Source: an uncultured Veillonellaceae bacterium (lineage in GTDB: Bacteria; Bacillota; Negativicutes; Selenomonadales; Selenomonadaceae). Taken from it: DNA of 44,675 nucleotides. The position numbers and the translations under genes were made by a program. Below the pieces are notes generated by a model that saw only the letters and a program-made list of their open reading frames with translations, did not search any database and was not told the DNA's origin. Positions within the stretch are counted from its first letter, which is position 1. The number at the start of each line of letters is the position of its first letter. The DNA lies in the NCBI GenBank assembly GCA_900316275.1, contig ONCF01000002.1:1-44675 (forward strand), written 5' to 3'. Positions 27,626 through 35,980 of the stretch are shown piece after piece.

Positions 27626-27661
27626 TTAAGCGGCAGTTTCTGAAAGGGGATTGCCGCTTAA
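27626..27661. terminator. Shared hairpin between murB and hypD
   Basis: TTAAGCGGCA (27626-27635) and TGCCGCTTAA (27652-27661) form a perfect 10-bp stem. The right arm includes the hypD stop codon. There is no clear T run on either strand, so its strength as a terminator is uncertain. Confidence 0.5.
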
Positions 27662-28707
27662 AGCTGTGCGCCGTATTGATACCAGGCGGAGCAGGCGCCC
27701 TCGTGGGAGACCATGCACGCGCCGACCGGCGTTTCGGGCGTGCAGATTTTGCCAAAGAGCGGGCAGTCGGGCGGCGTGCAGGCACCGCGCAGGATGTCGC
27801 CGCAGCGGCAGGCCGGGTTTTGCTGGCCGCTTTGTTTTGGTATGGCAAATTTTACGCGTGCATCAAAAGCGGCGAACTCCGGTCTAAGTTCGAGGCCACT
27901 GGCGGGGATGATGCCGAGGCCACGCCATTCGGTGTCGCAGGGCTGCATCATGCTGTTTACGAGCTGCTGGGCGGCAGGGCTGCCTTCGGCCTTGACGACG
28001 CGCGGGTAGCAGTTGGCAAAGAAGGGCTGGCCCGTGGCGCTCTTCTTGATAATCGTGGCGAGGGCGGTGAGGATTTCGCTGGCGGTAAAGCCGGTGACGA
28101 CGCCGGAGATGCCCTCGGCGACGAGGCTCTCGGGCACGCTGGTGCCAGCGATGGCGCAGACGTGGCCGGGATAGAGGTAGGCGTCACAGCTGCCCGCCAT
28201 GGCGTGGTAGGCGGCGGGCATGGTCTTGTTGGCCGTGAGCAGGGAGAAGTTCTTGAGGCCGGCGGCCTGAGCACGTCGGACGGCGAGGCAGGCGCCAGGC
28301 GTCGTGGTCTCGAAGCCGACGGCGAGGAAGGTGACCTGCTCGTCGGGATGTTCTACGGCGTAGGTCTCGGCGTCAAGCGGCGTGTAGACGACCTGCACAT
28401 GGGCGCCCTGACTGCGGGCGTCGGCGAGGCTTTCCTGCGAGCCGGGGACGCGCACGAGGTCACCGAAGGTGCAGATGGTGACACCACGCTCGAGTGCGAG
28501 CCAGATGGCTTCGTCGATGTAGGCGGTAGGGGTTACGCAGACGGGGCAGCCAGGGCCGGAGATGAGTTGGATGTTTTCCGGCAGCAGGGAGCGGATGCCG
28601 AGGCGGAATATTTCGTGCGTATGCGTGCCGCAGACTTCCATGATGCGGAGTTTGGGCCCGCGATAGCCCGTGACGAGGTCGCGGGCTTTTTGTAGTTGTG
28701 CGTTCAC
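27658..28707 (-). CDS. hypD: [NiFe]-hydrogenase maturation protein HypD
   Basis: Iron-sulfur protein that, with HypC, carries the Fe(CN)2CO unit for [NiFe]-hydrogenase. The 349-residue protein has CGTHTHE (26-32, redox Cys), GPGCPVCVTP (51-60, Cys pair for Fe binding), GFETTTP near 131 and PGHVCAIAG. The C-terminal cysteine set for the [4Fe-4S] cluster runs from CRCGD through DCPLFGKICTP to GACMVSHEGAC. The start is GTG with AAAGGA upstream. It is the last gene of a hypF-hypC-hypD operon, 15 bp after hypC. Confidence 0.97.
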   Translation of the reverse strand: MNAQLQKARDLVTGYRGPKLRIMEVCGTHTHEIFRLGIRSLLPENIQLISGPGCPVCVTPTAYIDEAIWLALERGVTICTFGDLVRVPGSQESLADARSQGAHVQVVYTPLDAETYAVEHPDEQVTFLAVGFETTTPGACLAVRRAQAAGLKNFSLLTANKTMPAAYHAMAGSCDAYLYPGHVCAIAGTSVPESLVAEGISGVVTGFTASEILTALATIIKKSATGQPFFANCYPRVVKAEGSPAAQQLVNSMMQPCDTEWRGLGIIPASGLELRPEFAAFDARVKFAIPKQSGQQNPACRCGDILRGACTPPDCPLFGKICTPETPVGACMVSHEGACSAWYQYGAQL

Positions 28708-28722: not shown

Positions 28723-28929
28723 TTACAGATTATTCATGACCGCGGCGGCTTCGCTGGCGTCGTCGCTGGTGATTTTCGCGATGGCGAGGCCGGCGTGTAC
28801 CATGACGTAGTCGCCGGGGTCGACGTCTGCGAGCAGCTCGGCCGAGACTTCGCGACGCGCCCCCGAGGCATCGACAAGCGCCGTGCCGTCCTTAATCTTC
28901 AAAACTTTTGCTGGTAATCCTACACACAT
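28723..28929 (-). CDS. hypC: Hydrogenase maturation chaperone HypC
   Basis: A 68-residue HypC/HupF chaperone. The essential N-terminal Cys2 is in MCVGLPAKVLKI, and the conserved PGDYVMVHAGLAIAKI follows near 38-53. It binds HypD to assemble the Fe(CN)2CO moiety and then hands it to the hydrogenase large subunit. It starts 2 bases after the hypF stop with AAGGAG overlapping the hypF end, a sign of coupled translation. Confidence 0.97.
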   Translation of the reverse strand: MCVGLPAKVLKIKDGTALVDASGARREVSAELLADVDPGDYVMVHAGLAIAKITSDDASEAAAVMNNL

Positions 28930-28931
28930 GG

Positions 28932-31415
28932 TTATTCTCCTTTATGGTTCAGATAATACATAGCACGCGTGGCCTGTCCTAAACAGATTCCTCCGTCGTT
29001 AGGCGGGATGAGGTGGTGGCGCAGGACGGTGAAGTGATGGACCGTGAGGGCCTGCGTGGCGAGCTGCATGAGCAGGGTGTTCTGCATGACGCCGCCGGAG
29101 AGAGCGACGGTCTCGAGGCCGGTGGTCTCGCGTGCCTGCACGCAGGCATTAGCTATCATAGCAGCGAGGCCGGCGTGGAACGTGTAGGCGAGCTGCTCGG
29201 TGTCGGTACCCTGTAGGCGCGCGCGCAACAGCTGGCTGAACAGCTGGTCGGTGGGCAGGTGGCAAGGGGTTGCTGTTGCACTGGTCGAGGCGGTGGCAGA
29301 TGTCGGGCCTGCGTCAGTGCAGGGTAGGTCAGCCGCGAGGCGCTGCATGGCCTGCAGGTGTTCGGCGGCGGTACGCGTGCGGGCGTAGCGGTCGGCGGCG
29401 AACTGGAGGTACATGCTGGCCTCGCCTTCGAAGGTGGAGGCTTTGCGGATGCCGAGCAGGGCGCTGGTGGCGTCGTAGAGGCGGCCGGCGCTGGTGCTGG
29501 TGATGGTGTTGATGTGGTTATCGGCCATGAATGTCTGGGCCGCGAGTGCGTCGGCTGGGCAGAGCTGCAACTGGTCGTTGAGCGCGGCGAGACGCTCCTG
29601 GTCGTGGCCGCTGAGGGCGTAGAGCAGGGCGATGGCGACGCGCCAGCCTTCGCGGGAGGCTTTGTCGCCGCCAGCCTGCAGGAAGGGTGCTATGCTGCCG
29701 AGGCGGGTGAAGCCGGCGTAGTCGCAGCGCAGGATTTCGCCGCCCCAGATGGTGCCGTCGGTGCCGTAGCCGGTGCCGTCAAAGCTGACGCCGATGACGG
29801 GCTGGCTGTAGTCGTTTTCGGCCATGCAACTGAGGATGTGGGCGTAGTGGTGCTGCACGGGCAGCAGGGGGAGGCCCATCTCCTCTGCGACGGCGGTGGT
29901 GTTGTAGCGCGGGTGCATATCGCAGGCGATGAGCGTGGGCTCGGTTTCGAGGAGCTCGGTGAGGCGGTGGACGGTTTCTTTGAGCGCGAGGACGGTGCGC
30001 AGGTCGCTCATGTCGCCGACGTAGGGCGAGGGGTAGAACAGGCTGTTGCGTCCGACGCAGAACGTGTTTTTGAGCTCGCCGCCGATGCCGAGGACGGCGC
30101 CGTGCCAGTCATTTTTGAGCATGACGGGCAGCGGGGCGTAGCCACGGCTGCGGCGTATCATGTAGGGTTCGCCCGCGAGGTAGTCCATGACGGTGTCGTC
30201 AGCGCGGATGCGGATGGCGCGGTCGTGGGAGAGCAGGAGGTTGCAGAAGCCGCTCAGCGCCTCGGTGGCGCCTTTATCGTCACGGCAGATAGGTGCCCCG
30301 GCTGGATTGCCGCTGGTCATGACGAGCACATCGGGCATGTGCTCCTGCACGTCGTCAGGGTAGTCGAAGAGCAGCATCTGCACGGGTGCGTAGGGCAGCA
30401 TGACGCCGATTTTCGGGTTGCCCGGCGCGACGAGGTAGGTAATCTGCGGCGCGGTGGCCACAGGTGCTGTTTCAGCCGTGGGGTTGTCCGCAGGGGCGAC
30501 AGGCATTGCTTCTTGCACGTTGCTCGCCTGGTGTTCTGTCGTGTTTGCCTTATCTGGGGCTGGTTTGCGGCGCAGCAGGATGATGGGTTTCTGGTGGCCG
30601 GTGAGGATAGCTTCCTGACCGGGCTCGAGCTCGCATTCGCGCTGCACGGCAGCCATGTCGCGTGCCATGATGGCGAAGGGCTTGACAGGGCGGTGTTTGA
30701 GCTGGCGCAGGCGGGCGACGGCGTTGCTGTTGCGCGCATCGCAGGCGAGGTGAAAGCCGCCGATGCCTTTGATGGCGACGATGCCGCCGCTGGCGATGGT
30801 ACGGCGGGCGCGCGTGAGGGCGTCGGCACCGCGGCAGGCCTCGTCACCGATGATGTAGAGTTCGGGGCCGCAGTCGTTGCAGCAGACGGGCTGGGCGTCG
30901 TAGCGGCGGCTCTCCGGGTCGGTGTATTCGTGGGCGCATTCCTCGCACATGGGGAAGGCTTTCATGCTGGTGCGTTCGCGGTCGTAGGGCATGGCGTCGA
31001 GGATGGTGAGGCGCGGGCCGCAGGCGGTGCAGTTGATGAAGGGGTGCAGGTAGCGGCGGTTCGCGGGGTCAAAGAGCTCGGCGCGGCAGCGGTCACAGGT
31101 GGCGATGTCGGGTGAGACAAAGATGTCGCCTTTTTCGCGTGCGCTGTCGATGATGGCAAAGGTGGTGTAGGTCTCAGGCGCCGCGAGGGGCTCGGTGTCG
31201 ACTTTGAGGATGGCGGCGCGCTCGGGCGCCTCGGCTTCGAGGCCGGTGAAAAAGGCGGCGCAGTCTTGGTCGCTGCCCTGGGCGAAGATTTCGACGTAGG
31301 GGCCTTTGTTGCAGACGCTGCCGCAGATATGGTGGCGCGTGGCCAGCCGGTCGACAAAGGGCCGGAAACCGACACCCTGTACGATGCCGTAGACTTTACT
31401 ATGATAAAGGGCCAT
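28932..31415 (-). CDS. hypF: Carbamoyltransferase HypF
   Basis: Makes the thiocarbamoyl group on HypE that becomes the cyanide ligands of [NiFe]-hydrogenase. Domains in order: acylphosphatase-like (YGIVQGVGFRPFVDRL near 8-23), two zinc fingers (CDRCRAELFDP, INCTACGPRL; CEECAHEYTD, CNDCGPEL), YrdC-like domain, and Kae1/carbamoyltransferase-like domain with HHYAHILSCMAE and SFDGTGYGTDGTIWGGE. It is longer than usual (about 827 residues), mostly through a low-complexity insert after ILLRRKPAP. The ATG at 31415 is my choice; a TTG at 31427 is also possible. The partner hypE, and hypA and hypB, are not in the window. Confidence 0.95.
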   Translation of the reverse strand: MALYHSKVYGIVQGVGFRPFVDRLATRHHICGSVCNKGPYVEIFAQGSDQDCAAFFTGLEAEAPERAAILKVDTEPLAAPETYTTFAIIDSAREKGDIFVSPDIATCDRCRAELFDPANRRYLHPFINCTACGPRLTILDAMPYDRERTSMKAFPMCEECAHEYTDPESRRYDAQPVCCNDCGPELYIIGDEACRGADALTRARRTIASGGIVAIKGIGGFHLACDARNSNAVARLRQLKHRPVKPFAIMARDMAAVQRECELEPGQEAILTGHQKPIILLRRKPAPDKANTTEHQASNVQEAMPVAPADNPTAETAPVATAPQITYLVAPGNPKIGVMLPYAPVQMLLFDYPDDVQEHMPDVLVMTSGNPAGAPICRDDKGATEALSGFCNLLLSHDRAIRIRADDTVMDYLAGEPYMIRRSRGYAPLPVMLKNDWHGAVLGIGGELKNTFCVGRNSLFYPSPYVGDMSDLRTVLALKETVHRLTELLETEPTLIACDMHPRYNTTAVAEEMGLPLLPVQHHYAHILSCMAENDYSQPVIGVSFDGTGYGTDGTIWGGEILRCDYAGFTRLGSIAPFLQAGGDKASREGWRVAIALLYALSGHDQERLAALNDQLQLCPADALAAQTFMADNHINTITSTSAGRLYDATSALLGIRKASTFEGEASMYLQFAADRYARTRTAAEHLQAMQRLAADLPCTDAGPTSATASTSATATPCHLPTDQLFSQLLRARLQGTDTEQLAYTFHAGLAAMIANACVQARETTGLETVALSGGVMQNTLLMQLATQALTVHHFTVLRHHLIPPNDGGICLGQATRAMYYLNHKGE

Positions 31416-31447
31416 GATGTGGCTCAACTCACTTTCATTTTTGGTTT

Positions 31448-31799: not shown

Positions 31800-32858
31800 T
31801 TAAGTCTCTCCGCTTACGGCAAAATGTGGCATATCCATAAATGTTATATCTACATCTGCGGGTACCGCTCTCCGTAGCGCCGGGTCGCCGATGATGGTGT
31901 CATAGTGCTGCTCGCGTATGGTGGCGATGAAGTCATCCTCTTCGCGCAGCTGCATATCCTGCGGCTGCGTTTGTGCTGTGTCCTGCATAAACCAGGTGGC
32001 GCAGGTGGTTTTGGCCTGCGGATGACTCCTTTGCAGGTAGTCGCGGCAGGCGTTGGCGGCGTATTGCTGGTGGACGATGAGGATGTTTTGCGCCGTGGGG
32101 GGGACGGTGTCCATTATAGCTGTCTCGGCGGTAGTGAGGGGACAGCGGCATACGTAGGGCGTGCCGTATTTTTCCTGTAGGTATTTTACCGCAGCCAGGC
32201 CGGCGGGGCTGTAGGCGATGTTCCGTGTGTTGTCGCCTGCCTGCTCGTAGGCAGCGAGGTCGCTGTCGAGGCCGTAGAGGCGGATGGTGTCGTAGTCAGG
32301 ATATGCTTCCCGCAGCGCCGTGCGCAGTGCGTCACCAGTCAGGTCGGCGAGGTCGAGCGGTGTCGTTCCCCAGACCCCGAGGATGCGCTCGTCCCTTTTG
32401 GCTGCTGGCGCGGCGAAGGTTTTGAGCAGCGCGAGGTAGGCGGCGCTGATGCCGGCGTCGTAGAGGTGAGTGCCCGTAGTGGGAATGGTGATGACGGGGC
32501 GGCCGAGGCGTTTTTGACCGAGGCGGGCGAGGGCCTGATAGTCGGTGCCGATGACGGCGGGGACGGGGGTGCCGACGATGGCGGCGAAGGGCACGTCGAT
32601 GTCCGCACAGGCGCGGGCCATTTTGTCGAGCAGGCGGTCGTCGCGGCCCATGATGGCGTCCATGTCGCGCAGGCCGGCGCTGAAGACGGCGCTGGTGTGG
32701 TCACCAAGGCCCCAGCGCGGCTCGTCGAAGCCGCAGATGTTACCGGCGCAGCCACCGGCGTCACAGATGACGACGAGGCCGCCGAGCGGGTAGAGCACGG
32801 CGGCCGCACCGCTGTCGTCGGGGGCAAAGGGGGCGAGGTAGAGGCGGAGTCCTTTCAT
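31800..32858 (-). CDS. Nitrogenase-like component 1, short beta-type (NifK/NifE-like) subunit
   Basis: A 352-residue protein of the nitrogenase component 1/oxidoreductase superfamily, clearly shorter than NifK (about 450-520). The N-terminal cluster region reads VVICDAGGCAGNICGFDEPRW, with Cys32, Cys37 and Cys42. The SAGLRDMDAIMGRDDRLLDKM segment corresponds to the G-x-x-K-L helix of the family. The usual third cluster cysteine is missing: the aligned stretch is AAIVGTPVPAVIGTDYQAL. Other conserved parts are GRPVITIPTTGTH and ILGVWGTTPLDL. It starts 5 bp after the larger subunit gene and is last in the operon nifH-like, alpha-like, beta-like. It would form a heterotetramer with that subunit; the substrate is unknown. 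Confidence 0.82.
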   Translation of the reverse strand: MKGLRLYLAPFAPDDSGAAAVLYPLGGLVVICDAGGCAGNICGFDEPRWGLGDHTSAVFSAGLRDMDAIMGRDDRLLDKMARACADIDVPFAAIVGTPVPAVIGTDYQALARLGQKRLGRPVITIPTTGTHLYDAGISAAYLALLKTFAAPAAKRDERILGVWGTTPLDLADLTGDALRTALREAYPDYDTIRLYGLDSDLAAYEQAGDNTRNIAYSPAGLAAVKYLQEKYGTPYVCRCPLTTAETAIMDTVPPTAQNILIVHQQYAANACRDYLQRSHPQAKTTCATWFMQDTAQTQPQDMQLREEDDFIATIREQHYDTIIGDPALRRAVPADVDITFMDMPHFAVSGET

Positions 32859-32863
32859 GTGTG

Positions 32864-34228
32864 TTACCTTCCAAAACTTATTTTTGCTGCAAAGCCGAGT
32901 GCCAACCGTGCAGGAGATGCTGGGCAGGGCGCTCCTCGGGGGGTGAGCTGCTGGCGCATGGCGGTGAAGAGGGCGCGGATGGCGGCGAAGCCGAAGGGCT
33001 GTATCTCGTCGTGCCAGCCGATGCCGGGGACGTCGGGGTGATACCAGCAGGCGTCCTCGCCGATGGCGAAAGTGACGCCGGAGTCCGCCGCGTCGTAGTG
33101 CACCATGGTGGGGCTGAGGTTTGTATAGATGCGTGTATCCGGGCTGAGCTGGCCGAGCTGGCGCACATAATAGGCGTCGTCGGCGCGCGGGTTGGCGAAG
33201 ATTTCCTCGACCGTGAGGCCGCTGCGCACGAGGGCGAGTGCAAGGTCAAACGGGTTCGCATTCAGGCGGCTGCCAATGGCGAAATGCAGGTCGCTGTGCT
33301 GCGTGCAGAAGGCGCGGATGTCCTGCATGACGGTAGTGACAAAGGGAAAATGGTTGGACGCGTGTACGCCGAGAGCCTTGGCCAGCGCGCGGTATTGGTT
33401 GGCGAGGCGGTCGGCCTGATAGGTGCGTCGCAACTCGATAAAGGGGATGTGCAGGCGCCCGGCCATTTGCGTGGCGGCATCGCGCGCCTCGCTGTCGAGC
33501 ACGAGGTTGAAGTTTGCCGTGGCCATGTCCTGATAGGCCGCGTAGTCCGCGCAGGTCGCAAGCTGGCGCACGGTTTTGAGGCCCCACTGGCGCAGCAGCG
33601 TGGGGAGCTCGCAGTCAGCGGCGAGCGGCGTGAAGTAGCCGAGCAGGTTGCAGGCCGTCGGGTCCTTTTTTTGCGGCTCTAGCAGGCCATAGATAGACTC
33701 GCGCACGGCGACCATGGGTGGGTGGCTGCCGTCACGGGTGAGCGCGTACATGTAGCAGGGACGCACGGGCAGGCCGCAGCGCTCCTCCGCGCGGCGACAG
33801 ACGCGCTCCATATCGGTGCCGAGCAGGGCGTCGACGCAGGTCAGGCAGAGCATGATGACGCTCGGGCGCTCCGTGCGGCTCGCGACGAACGCGGCCACGG
33901 CCTCGGGGATGCGCTGCAAATGCCGCCCGGTCACGATGTCGTTATCATTGAGCTCGTAAAAGGCGAAGCGCTCGCCGTAGTGCCCCGGGCCGCGCAGGGC
34001 GGCCGTGTTGCGTCCGCAGCAGCCGGGGGAGATGAGCAGCATGATGGAGCCGGGGATGGAGAGCCCAGCGCGCTTCACGCCGAAGCCCTGCGCGCCCGGC
34101 GAGTTGAAGTCGAGTGCGGCGGGGGAGTTCCAGATGAGGTGGGCGTCGAGCTGGAACGGCGCGGGCAGCGGGTCGAGCCCGTGCCCGGCCAGTGCGGCGG
34201 CTGTCATGTAAAACGGTTTATCGGACAT
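32864..34228 (-). CDS. Nitrogenase-like component 1, alpha-type (NifD-like) subunit
   Basis: A 454-residue member of the nitrogenase component 1 superfamily. Cluster-type cysteines are Cys70/71 (ISPGCCGRN, like the first NifD P-cluster Cys) and Cys128/131 (LCLTCVDALLGTDMERV, like the CP-x-x-LIGDD motif). The middle P-cluster cysteine is absent: the FYELNDNDIVTGRHL stretch aligns with the NifD E-x-DIVFGG region but has no Cys. I cannot find the NifD residues that hold the iron-molybdenum cofactor. A simple [4Fe-4S] cluster shared with the smaller subunit, as in protochlorophyllide or F430-type reductases, is therefore more likely than a P-cluster/FeMo-co pair. It follows the nifH-like gene after 133 bp. 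Confidence 0.85.
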   Translation of the reverse strand: MSDKPFYMTAAALAGHGLDPLPAPFQLDAHLIWNSPAALDFNSPGAQGFGVKRAGLSIPGSIMLLISPGCCGRNTAALRGPGHYGERFAFYELNDNDIVTGRHLQRIPEAVAAFVASRTERPSVIMLCLTCVDALLGTDMERVCRRAEERCGLPVRPCYMYALTRDGSHPPMVAVRESIYGLLEPQKKDPTACNLLGYFTPLAADCELPTLLRQWGLKTVRQLATCADYAAYQDMATANFNLVLDSEARDAATQMAGRLHIPFIELRRTYQADRLANQYRALAKALGVHASNHFPFVTTVMQDIRAFCTQHSDLHFAIGSRLNANPFDLALALVRSGLTVEEIFANPRADDAYYVRQLGQLSPDTRIYTNLSPTMVHYDAADSGVTFAIGEDACWYHPDVPGIGWHDEIQPFGFAAIRALFTAMRQQLTPRGAPCPASPARLALGFAAKISFGR

Positions 34229-34361
34229 GATAGGGGAGTCTCCTTATGGGGTAATGCCGGTGGGGCAACATGCCACGGCTGCGTGCAAACGTTGTTGGTG
34301 CCTGTCGTGGACTGTCAGGTGGTAAAGAACGCCGCAAACATTGTGCTGGATAGCTGTGGCG

Positions 34362-35123
34362 TCAGTGCCGTTTATTACGGTCGAGCAGGCGCTGGGCCAG
34401 CGTGAGGAATTTCTGGCTGATGGGCAGCGACGGGTCACCCTCGATGACGGTCTGGCCTTTTTCCTCGTAGATGTTGATTTCGTCGCTGCGCGGCAGGTCG
34501 GCGAGGATGTCGATGAAGTGCTGCTGGGCAAAAGCGGCGACTTTGGCGTGCTCGTTCGGCGTATTGCGGCGGTTCAGGATGACACCGCGCAGGTGCGCAT
34601 AGCCACGGTCAGCAAAGTTCTCCACAGCCATCGCGATGTTGTTGGCGGCGTAGAGGGCCATTTTCTCGCCGGAGGTCACGATGAGTACGTCCTCGGCGTA
34701 GCCCTGGCGGATGGGCGCGGCAAAACCACCGCAGACGACGTCGCCGAGCACGTCGTAGAGCACGACGTCCGGTTTAAATTTCTCAAAGAGATGCAGATCC
34801 TCGAGCAGGCCAAACGTGGCGATGATGCCGCGCCCCGCACAGCCGAGGCCCGGCGTGGGGCCGCCCGTCTCGATGCAGAGCACGCCGCCGAAGCCGGTTT
34901 TGGCGATTTCCTCGAGCTGCTGCGGCTCGTGGTCATATTTGCGCATATATTCCATGACGGGCAGGAGCGGCTGACCGCCGAGCAGGTTGATGGTCGAGTC
35001 GGCCTTCGGGTCGCAGCCAATCTGGATGACGCGCTGCCCGAGGTGGGCAAACGCCGCTGCGAGGTTGCTGGTTAGCGTCGACTTGCCGATGCCGCCCTTG
35101 CCGTAGATTGCAATTTTCAGCAT
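34362..35123 (-). CDS. NifH-family nitrogenase-like reductase (iron protein)
   Basis: ATP-dependent electron donor to nitrogenase-like enzymes; a homodimer bridged by one [4Fe-4S] cluster. The 253 residues carry P-loop GKGGIGKST (8-16), [10 protein letters not shown] (35-44), the first cluster ligand Cys95 in [14 protein letters not shown] (Arg98 is the ADP-ribosylation position of true NifH) and the second ligand Cys131 in [17 protein letters not shown]. It is very NifH-like, unlike its poorly conserved partners. The ATG at 35123 is preceded by GGAGG at 10 bases; upstream in-frame starts lack a site. It heads the operon. The 133-bp gap after it holds no gene. Confidence 0.93.
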
Positions 35124-35404: not shown

Positions 35405-35980
35405 ATGGGCAAGTGGGCAGTGATTTATTCCTCCGTGACGGGCAACACGCGCAAGGTGGCCGAGGCCATCGCTGAGGCACACGGCGAGGCGGACGTGTTC
35501 CGCGTGCAGGATGCGCCGCAGGACCTCAGCGGCTACGAGGTCGTGTGCATCGGCTACTGGCTGCGTCTCGGCGGCCCGGACCCGCTGACGCTGAAATATC
35601 TGGCGCAGGTGCACGACGCGCAGGTCTGCTTCTTTGAGACGCACGGCACGGAGCGCGGCACGGAGCATGCGGTCACGGCCTTTGCCCGCGCGGCGTATGC
35701 GCTGGGGGACGGCTGCGAGATTATCGGCACGTTCGGCTGCCAGGGCGCTATCAACGAGGCGCTGAAGGAGAAACGCCGCAACGCCGGCCCTGACGATCCG
35801 CATGGCGGCGCCGAGAGTCTCGCACGTTGGGAGCGGGCGGCCAGCCATCCCGATGCGGCCGACCTCGCCGATGCCGCCGCCTTTGCGCAGGCCATGCAGC
35901 ACAAGCTCGCGGCCCGTGAGCGCTACCGCGCCAAGATGGCCGCGAAAATGGCGGCCAGCCGACAGCCCGCGGATGCCTGA
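35405..35980 (+). CDS. Flavodoxin-family protein divergent from the nitrogenase-like operon
   Basis: A 191-residue FMN-binding electron carrier. The phosphate-binding loop is IYSSVTGNTRKVAEAI (about 7-22). The two flavin loops appear near CIGYWLRLGGPDP (48-60) and ETHGTERGTEHA (78-89). It is longer than simple flavodoxins (about 140-170) by a charged Ala-rich C-terminal helix. AAAGGA precedes the ATG. It is transcribed away from the nifH-like gene across a shared intergenic region with a Fur-box-like site, so it could replace ferredoxin as donor to the NifH-like protein under low iron. That partnership is inference from position. Confidence 0.85.
   Translation: MGKWAVIYSSVTGNTRKVAEAIAEAHGEADVFRVQDAPQDLSGYEVVCIGYWLRLGGPDPLTLKYLAQVHDAQVCFFETHGTERGTEHAVTAFARAAYALGDGCEIIGTFGCQGAINEALKEKRRNAGPDDPHGGAESLARWERAASHPDAADLADAAAFAQAMQHKLAARERYRAKMAAKMAASRQPADA

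Follow-up and report, generated by a model that had tools for sequence, protein, structure and literature searches.

A nitrogenase-like gene trio of an uncultured Veillonellaceae bacterium probably belongs to a HydG-independent pathway of [FeFe]-hydrogenase maturation

On what does a nitrogenase-like system act when it belongs to none of the characterised families? This question is raised by three genes, H, D and K, of an uncultured Veillonellaceae bacterium. They lie in a stretch of 44,675 nucleotides (assembly GCA_900316275.1, contig ONCF01000002.1, positions 1 to 44,675), referred to below as the window. A first-pass annotation, made from the letters alone, had described a NifH-type gene with component-1 genes of 454 and 352 residues at 31800-35123, and coordinates and Pfam matches bear this out:

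34362 to 35123, minus strand: H, a NifH-type [4Fe-4S] ATPase reductase of 253 amino acids (PF00142, P-loop, cluster cysteines)
32864 to 34228, minus strand: D, a component-1 alpha-like subunit of 454 amino acids with a NifE-like fold (PF00148, Foldseek)
31800 to 32858, minus strand: K, a shortened component-1 beta-like subunit of 352 amino acids (PF00148)

We consider it quite probable that this trio belongs to a dedicated pathway that builds the diatomic-ligand part of the H-cluster of [FeFe]-hydrogenase independently of HydG. It is also likely, if slightly less so, that this pathway is a second route to the H-cluster, free of HydG and widespread among common gut inhabitants, Blautia, Roseburia and Anaerobutyricum being examples, in which cyanide would be derived from carbamoyl phosphate via HypFCDE and two nitrogenase-like enzymes would act on an organometallic iron precursor.

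The trio is not the minimal three-gene unit that it had been taken for. Three genes directly downstream on the same strand, each above its NCBIfam cut-off, had been overlooked, as had three others (hypE-D2-K2) on another contig. The downstream genes are:

28932 to 31427, minus strand: hypF2, carbamoyltransferase HypF (TIGR00143, 715.8 bits, cut-off 466)
28723 to 28929, minus strand: hypC2, HypC chaperone with a Met-Cys start (TIGR00074, 68.4 bits, cut-off 48)
27658 to 28707, minus strand: hypD2, a second, divergent HypD (TIGR00075, 394 bits, cut-off 193)

In relatives, a conserved set of 9-11 genes is arranged as H-D-K-hypF-hypC-hypD-hypE-(TM1266)-(H2)-D2-K2, where D2-K2 is a second, distant component-1 pair and H2 an extra NifH. 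The present genome has the set in two parts, with H-D-K-hypF-C-D in the window and hypE-D2-K2 on contig C58.

The CO and CN ligands of [FeFe]-hydrogenase are attributed to HydG. A HydG model (cut-off 312 bits; true HydG scores 890-940 bits) was searched against 68 genomes, comprising 45 operon-positive genomes and 23 operon-negative Selenomonadaceae. Operon presence was scored from a search with D of 121 family genomes and from a motif scan of GTDB. HydG was found in 15 of the 23 operon-negative Selenomonadaceae and in none of the 45 operon-positive genomes, isolates among them; nor did the model find it in the genome studied here. Among the 64 genomes with an [FeFe]-hydrogenase, 45 carry the operon, 15 carry HydG, none carries both and four carry neither (Fisher p 2e-11, and 6e-8 within Selenomonadaceae, both ignoring kinship). 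Two genera (g3 and g16) contain species of either type, and never both systems in one genome. In terms of occurrence, the gene set substitutes for HydG. Radical S-adenosylmethionine (SAM) proteins resembling ThiH (160-217 bits) were considered as hidden HydG and rejected, because most of them stop near position 400 of the 470 of the profile, short of the last part of the HydG C-terminal region, and because similar matches also occur in HydG-positive genomes.

[FeFe]-hydrogenase (PF02906) was detected in all 45 operon-positive and all 15 HydG genomes, and HydF in 43 and 15 of them, respectively. HydE was found in this genome and in or beside many operons, in a search that covered part of the genomes. 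The present genome encodes HydE (360 bits), HydF (519 bits) and a group A6 [FeFe]-hydrogenase (874 bits), which has its three H-cluster cysteine motifs intact in translation. The motif scan, run over 84,980 species genomes, gave 502 stretches encoding relatives, and the locus counts and taxon spread reported for these GTDB relatives rest on the best 80. Clustering of the flanking genes at these 80 loci identified TM1266, an 'iron-only hydrogenase system regulator' (TIGR03959, 102 bits), at 35 loci, HydE at 17 and HydF at 13 as the widely recurring non-core families, and no recurring substrate-pathway gene was found there. At three loci (L109, L116 and L135), HydE and HydF are located inside the operon, in the order H-D-HydE-HydF-K. 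L123 is a single same-strand run, TM1266-HydF-HydE-H2-D2-K2-H-D-K-hypF-C-D-E, and HydF follows just after K2 at L051, in a Selenomonad relative. The neighbourhood survey, which the first-pass annotation had itself proposed, reveals with these recurrent hyp, HydE, HydF and TM1266 partners a larger set than the trio.

Four phyla are represented among the best 80 relatives, which include Selenomonadaceae, Lachnospiraceae (Blautia, Roseburia faecis, Coprococcus comes and Anaerobutyricum hallii), Clostridium luticellarii, Coriobacteriia, Lentisphaeria and a Synergistaceae metagenome-assembled genome. Identity is 50-55% for most relatives outside Selenomonadaceae; the relatives within this family agree with the anaerobic, host-associated member of Bacillota (Firmicutes) that had been assumed. 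In the 121 family genomes, most loci of D orthologues have the second component-1 pair about 7 kb downstream, and the order H-D-K-hypF-hypC-hypD-hypE-D2-K2 is found in most of the Selenomonadaceae-family loci inspected. The hypF gene directly follows K in nearly all loci, and the set is retained at nearly all loci with enough sequence. Lachnospiraceae loci have H2 ahead of D2-K2 and TM1266 between hypE and H2, and in Lentisphaeria H2-D2-K2 is placed first. A Schwartzia-type genome (G020) has a main operon without D2-K2 and a separate H-D-K, nearest to H2-D2-K2, at L058:7274-10593.

With regard to the proteins of the trio, H matches Fer4_NifH (PF00142) with 290.8 bits (cut-off 25), and D and K match Oxidored_nitro (PF00148) with 80.8 and 51.7 bits (cut-off 28.6). 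In H, the P-loop GKGGIGKST is intact, and so are the two cluster cysteines, C95 and C131, as had been read from the sequence; all of these are invariant in 95 orthologues together with C37 and C83. The earlier description of D and K as divergent proteins with NifD/NifK-like cluster segments holds for part of the P-cluster ligands. D retains two (C71 for alpha-Cys88 and C131 for alpha-Cys154) and K only one (C37 for beta-Cys95), whereas the positions of alpha-Cys62 in D and of beta-Cys70 and beta-Cys153 in K are not cysteines, nor is the Cys275 column of the iron-molybdenum cofactor (FeMo-co) in either D or D2. D/K and D2/K2 alike have three P-cluster-type cysteines per pair (2+1), compared with six in nitrogenase. 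C71, C128 and C131 of D are invariant in 78 orthologues, C37 of K is invariant and C42 present in 98% of 93 orthologues, and C23 of K2 is invariant in the orthologue alignment. The cysteine pattern of both pairs is consistent with a [4Fe-4S] relay and an empty cavity, and C128 of D, C23 of K2 and, at its 98%, C42 of K could be extra ligands completing the cluster set. At four loci (L051, L053, L054 and L057), D and K share one reading frame of about 790-840 amino acids, which suggests natural D-K fusions in some Selenomonadaceae.

None of the three proteins reached an NCBIfam equivalog cut-off. H scored 297.9 bits against nifH (cut-off 394.35) and 211 bits against BchL (345); the scores were 19 bits for BchN (420), 286 bits for CfbC (402) and 16.8 bits for CfbD (268). 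In trees, which held no Cfb sequence and in which BchL, BchN and BchB are long branches of unsure position, H, H2, D, D2, K and K2 form one group each, outside Nif, Bch and the genes of this genome that resemble methylthio-alkane reductase (Mar). The phylogeny that had been suggested as a check places H, D and K in none of the characterised clades represented in it. N2 fixation was rejected on the missing cofactor ligands, and membership of Bch or Cfb was rejected on scores below the cut-offs and, for Bch, on the position in the trees. AlphaFold2 single-chain models of D and K (predicted local distance difference test scores of 84 and 86) fold as nitrogenase component 1 (Foldseek E 1e-15 for D, with NifE as its best match, and 8e-15 for K). 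NifE or NifEN are the best Foldseek matches of both models, and a VIA-align comparison placed NifN, dark-operative protochlorophyllide oxidoreductase (DPOR) and nitrogenase within about 1 Z unit (24.2 to about 23). The match to solved Mar is weak (E 4e-4, versus E 7e-14 for NifE).

Nif genes elsewhere in the genome, with evidence of N2 fixation, had been named as a finding that would speak against an uncharacterised reductase. A second NifH/DK cluster does exist on contig C31 (L006:2114-13071), but it belongs to a different clade from H-D-K. It comprises a cysteine-synthase-like gene, a D/K pair, a NifX-like protein, a NifH above the nifH cut-off (469 bits), an NMT1-type ATP-binding cassette (ABC) transporter and another D/K pair, and resembles methylthio-alkane reductase-type clusters. 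D/K are separate from its pairs in a tree without any verified Mar sequence.

Three other explanations have to be weighed. This genome has a [NiFe]-hydrogenase, and HypF, C, D and E exceed their NCBIfam cut-offs, which would suit an accessory set for the maturation of that enzyme. Co-occurrence nevertheless rejects this role. No [NiFe] large subunit was matched in 21 of the 23 operon genomes outside Selenomonadaceae, which refutes the explanation for these genomes, and each of the 21 carries a single HypD, encoded in the operon; the remaining two have only a short partial match (about 50 bits) plus a second HypD. In Selenomonadaceae, the large subunit is matched in 119 of 121 genomes irrespective of the operon, and operon-bearing members generally have two HypD, a divergent copy in the operon in addition to the one near the [NiFe]-hydrogenase (G002 and G018, with one HypD, are exceptions). 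The present genome follows this pattern, with its hydrogenase-linked HypD on contig C114 and hypD2 in the window. HypB was below the cut-off in 14 of 27 genomes. Since the operon supplies the sole HypD of those 21 genomes, we conclude that its HypFCDE is dedicated to the nitrogenase-like set and not to [NiFe]-hydrogenase, and the accessory role is hardly credible.

An enzyme that, like Mar, CfbCD or DPOR, reduces a tetrapyrrole or a small organic compound is close to what the first-pass annotation had in mind and would accord with a NifH-like protein and two component-1 subunits that retain some of the P-cluster ligands. However, the proteins lie outside the Nif and Bch clades and far below the profile cut-offs, and their conserved partners are hydrogenase-maturation genes, so that we regard it as very improbable. 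What remains of the uncharacterised ATP-driven reductase is a nitrogenase-like system that falls into neither Nif nor Bch and scores below the Cfb cut-offs, and it appears to be an assembly set rather than a small-molecule reductase. Its likely 'substrate' is an H-cluster precursor, because of the HypFCDE and D2K2 partners, the linkage to HydE, HydF and TM1266 and the exclusion of HydG. It is unlikely, though less remote, that the operon encodes a new nitrogenase-like enzyme, of unspecified substrate, for which HypFCDE would provide an Fe(CN)2CO-type cofactor, HydG loss and the HydE/HydF linkage being secondary (for example, through HydE/HydF lending the cofactor a function). The dedication of HypFCDE in genomes without [NiFe]-hydrogenase and the resemblance of the two D/K pairs to a catalyst and a scaffold would fit such an enzyme, but the strict exclusion of HydG, the universal presence of [FeFe]-hydrogenase in operon genomes and the lack of a recurrent substrate-pathway gene beside the operon, where TM1266, HydE and HydF alone stand out, argue against it.

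The HydG-independent pathway that we favour could proceed in three steps. HypF and HypE would convert carbamoyl phosphate to thiocyanate on the C-terminal cysteine of HypE, and HypC-HypD would carry iron with CN and CO ligands, as these families do in [NiFe]-hydrogenase maturation. The operon proteins keep the residues that handle iron and cyanide: the C-terminal PRIC in 64 of 64 HypE, the Met-Cys start in 85 of 85 HypC, and CGTH and GPGCPVC in 81 of 81 HypD. Two ATP-driven reductases would then act, one formed by H and D-K, the other by D2-K2 with either H or H2. A [4Fe-4S] site is predicted where the subunits of each pair meet, and both pairs lack FeMo-co ligands. They may accept the Fe-cyanide-CO unit in the cavity that houses the cofactor in nitrogenase or NifEN, and reductive remodelling would yield a low-valent Fe-CO-CN synthon, possibly by producing CO from CO2, removing surplus cyanide or lowering the oxidation state of the iron. 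Finally, HydE and HydF, both present, would take over this synthon, finish the [2Fe] unit and load the apo-hydrogenase. What would be new is the pathway as a whole; every protein in it belongs to a known superfamily.

Several points weigh against this proposal. Each iron carried by HypCD has two CN ligands and one CO, and the H-cluster route needs approximately one CN and two CO; some remodelling would therefore be required, and this hypothetical step is the least certain of the pathway. Four genomes (G009, G013, G025 and G073), three of them with HydF, have an [FeFe]-hydrogenase with neither HydG nor the operon, for which a third route, loss or an assembly gap are possible explanations. HydF was not above the cut-off in two operon-positive genomes (G011 and G144), and HydE and HydF are mostly unlinked to the operon in Selenomonadaceae. 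At L050:6181-13710, the operon of G002 is without hypD, hypE and H, and the single HypD of the genome lies elsewhere, so this operon may borrow the hydrogenase-linked Hyp set. The genome sample is non-random with respect to kinship. All of the evidence is genomic; the genetic evidence is strong, and the chemistry is what we infer from it. On balance, in many gut bacteria with [FeFe]-hydrogenase and without HydG, a mixed nitrogenase-like and Hyp set probably does the job of HydG by a different route.

Several acetogenic clostridia were reported to lack HydG, HypA and HypB and to have [FeFe]-hydrogenase, HydE, HydF and HypCDEF, for which no straightforward explanation was available (Di Leonardo et al. 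2022, PMC9431212). This puzzle fits the pathway proposed here. By analogy with C. luticellarii (L125), the Hyp genes of Clostridium ljungdahlii are likely placed in an operon of the H-D-K type. The main text of a gene-essentiality paper on Clostridium autoethanogenum (PMC9004356) is silent on the operon, and other papers on this species present HypEDCF as one block, neighbours not being given. No published link between nitrogenase-like genes and the absence of HydG was found in the literature searched, subscription journals and bioRxiv being outside its scope.

If correct, the pathway would account for active hydrogenase in many abundant HydG-less gut hydrogen-cyclers, and probably also in gas-fermenting acetogens without detectable HydG (PMC9431212). 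Nitrogenase-like proteins would gain a role in organometallic cofactor assembly, [NiFe] and [FeFe] maturation would be joined, and the long-unplaced HypCDEF sets of HydG-less genomes would become directly testable.

With regard to the rest of the window, a divergent flavodoxin-like gene at 35405-35980, just upstream of H (Flavodoxin_3, 121 bits; BilS model, 98 of 155 bits), is a possible electron donor candidate; its conservation beside the operon was not seen in relatives. A SAM riboswitch is located at 2056-2159 (88 bits).

Several known systems can be compared with the operon. Among the nearest tree relatives of its proteins are plasmid-borne NifHDK-like trios of Sporomusa termitida (pSPTER) and Treponema saccharophilum (pTS1) (L182:14959-18231 and L183:14220-17393), which, in contrast to the operon, have no hyp genes and adjoin iron/siderophore-type ABC transporters. 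The NifHEN-like genes of Coprococcus catus adjoin hydrogenase maturation genes, and a role in metallocluster assembly was proposed for them in one sentence (Dos Santos et al. 2012, PMC3464626). As described in the relevant part of that paper, they have two cysteines in the alpha-like and one in the beta-like protein and occur as two linked NifHEN copies, and are very probably of the same family as H-D-K; that part does not connect them with [FeFe]-hydrogenase, with HydE/HydF or with a lack of HydG. The HypCDEF proteins of [NiFe]-hydrogenase maturation share the four proteins with their catalytic and carrier residues, whereas the operon copies sit among nitrogenase-like genes, in genomes without [NiFe]-hydrogenase and, in about half of the genomes searched for it, with HypB below the cut-off. 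Compared with the HydG-HydE-HydF route, the end product is presumed to be the same, HydE and HydF are kept and TM1266 is found in the operon, but HydG, the tyrosine lyase giving CO and CN, is absent from the 45 operon genomes and its place is held by HypFCDE and two nitrogenase-like pairs. NifEN/NifH differ from the trio in that D/K have no Cys275, three of six P-cluster cysteines, a separate clade and no NifB-type partner seen beside the operon. Nevertheless, the profiles and models of D and K match NifE best among solved structures, and the logic of an ATP-driven Fe protein acting on a scaffold is alike in the two systems.

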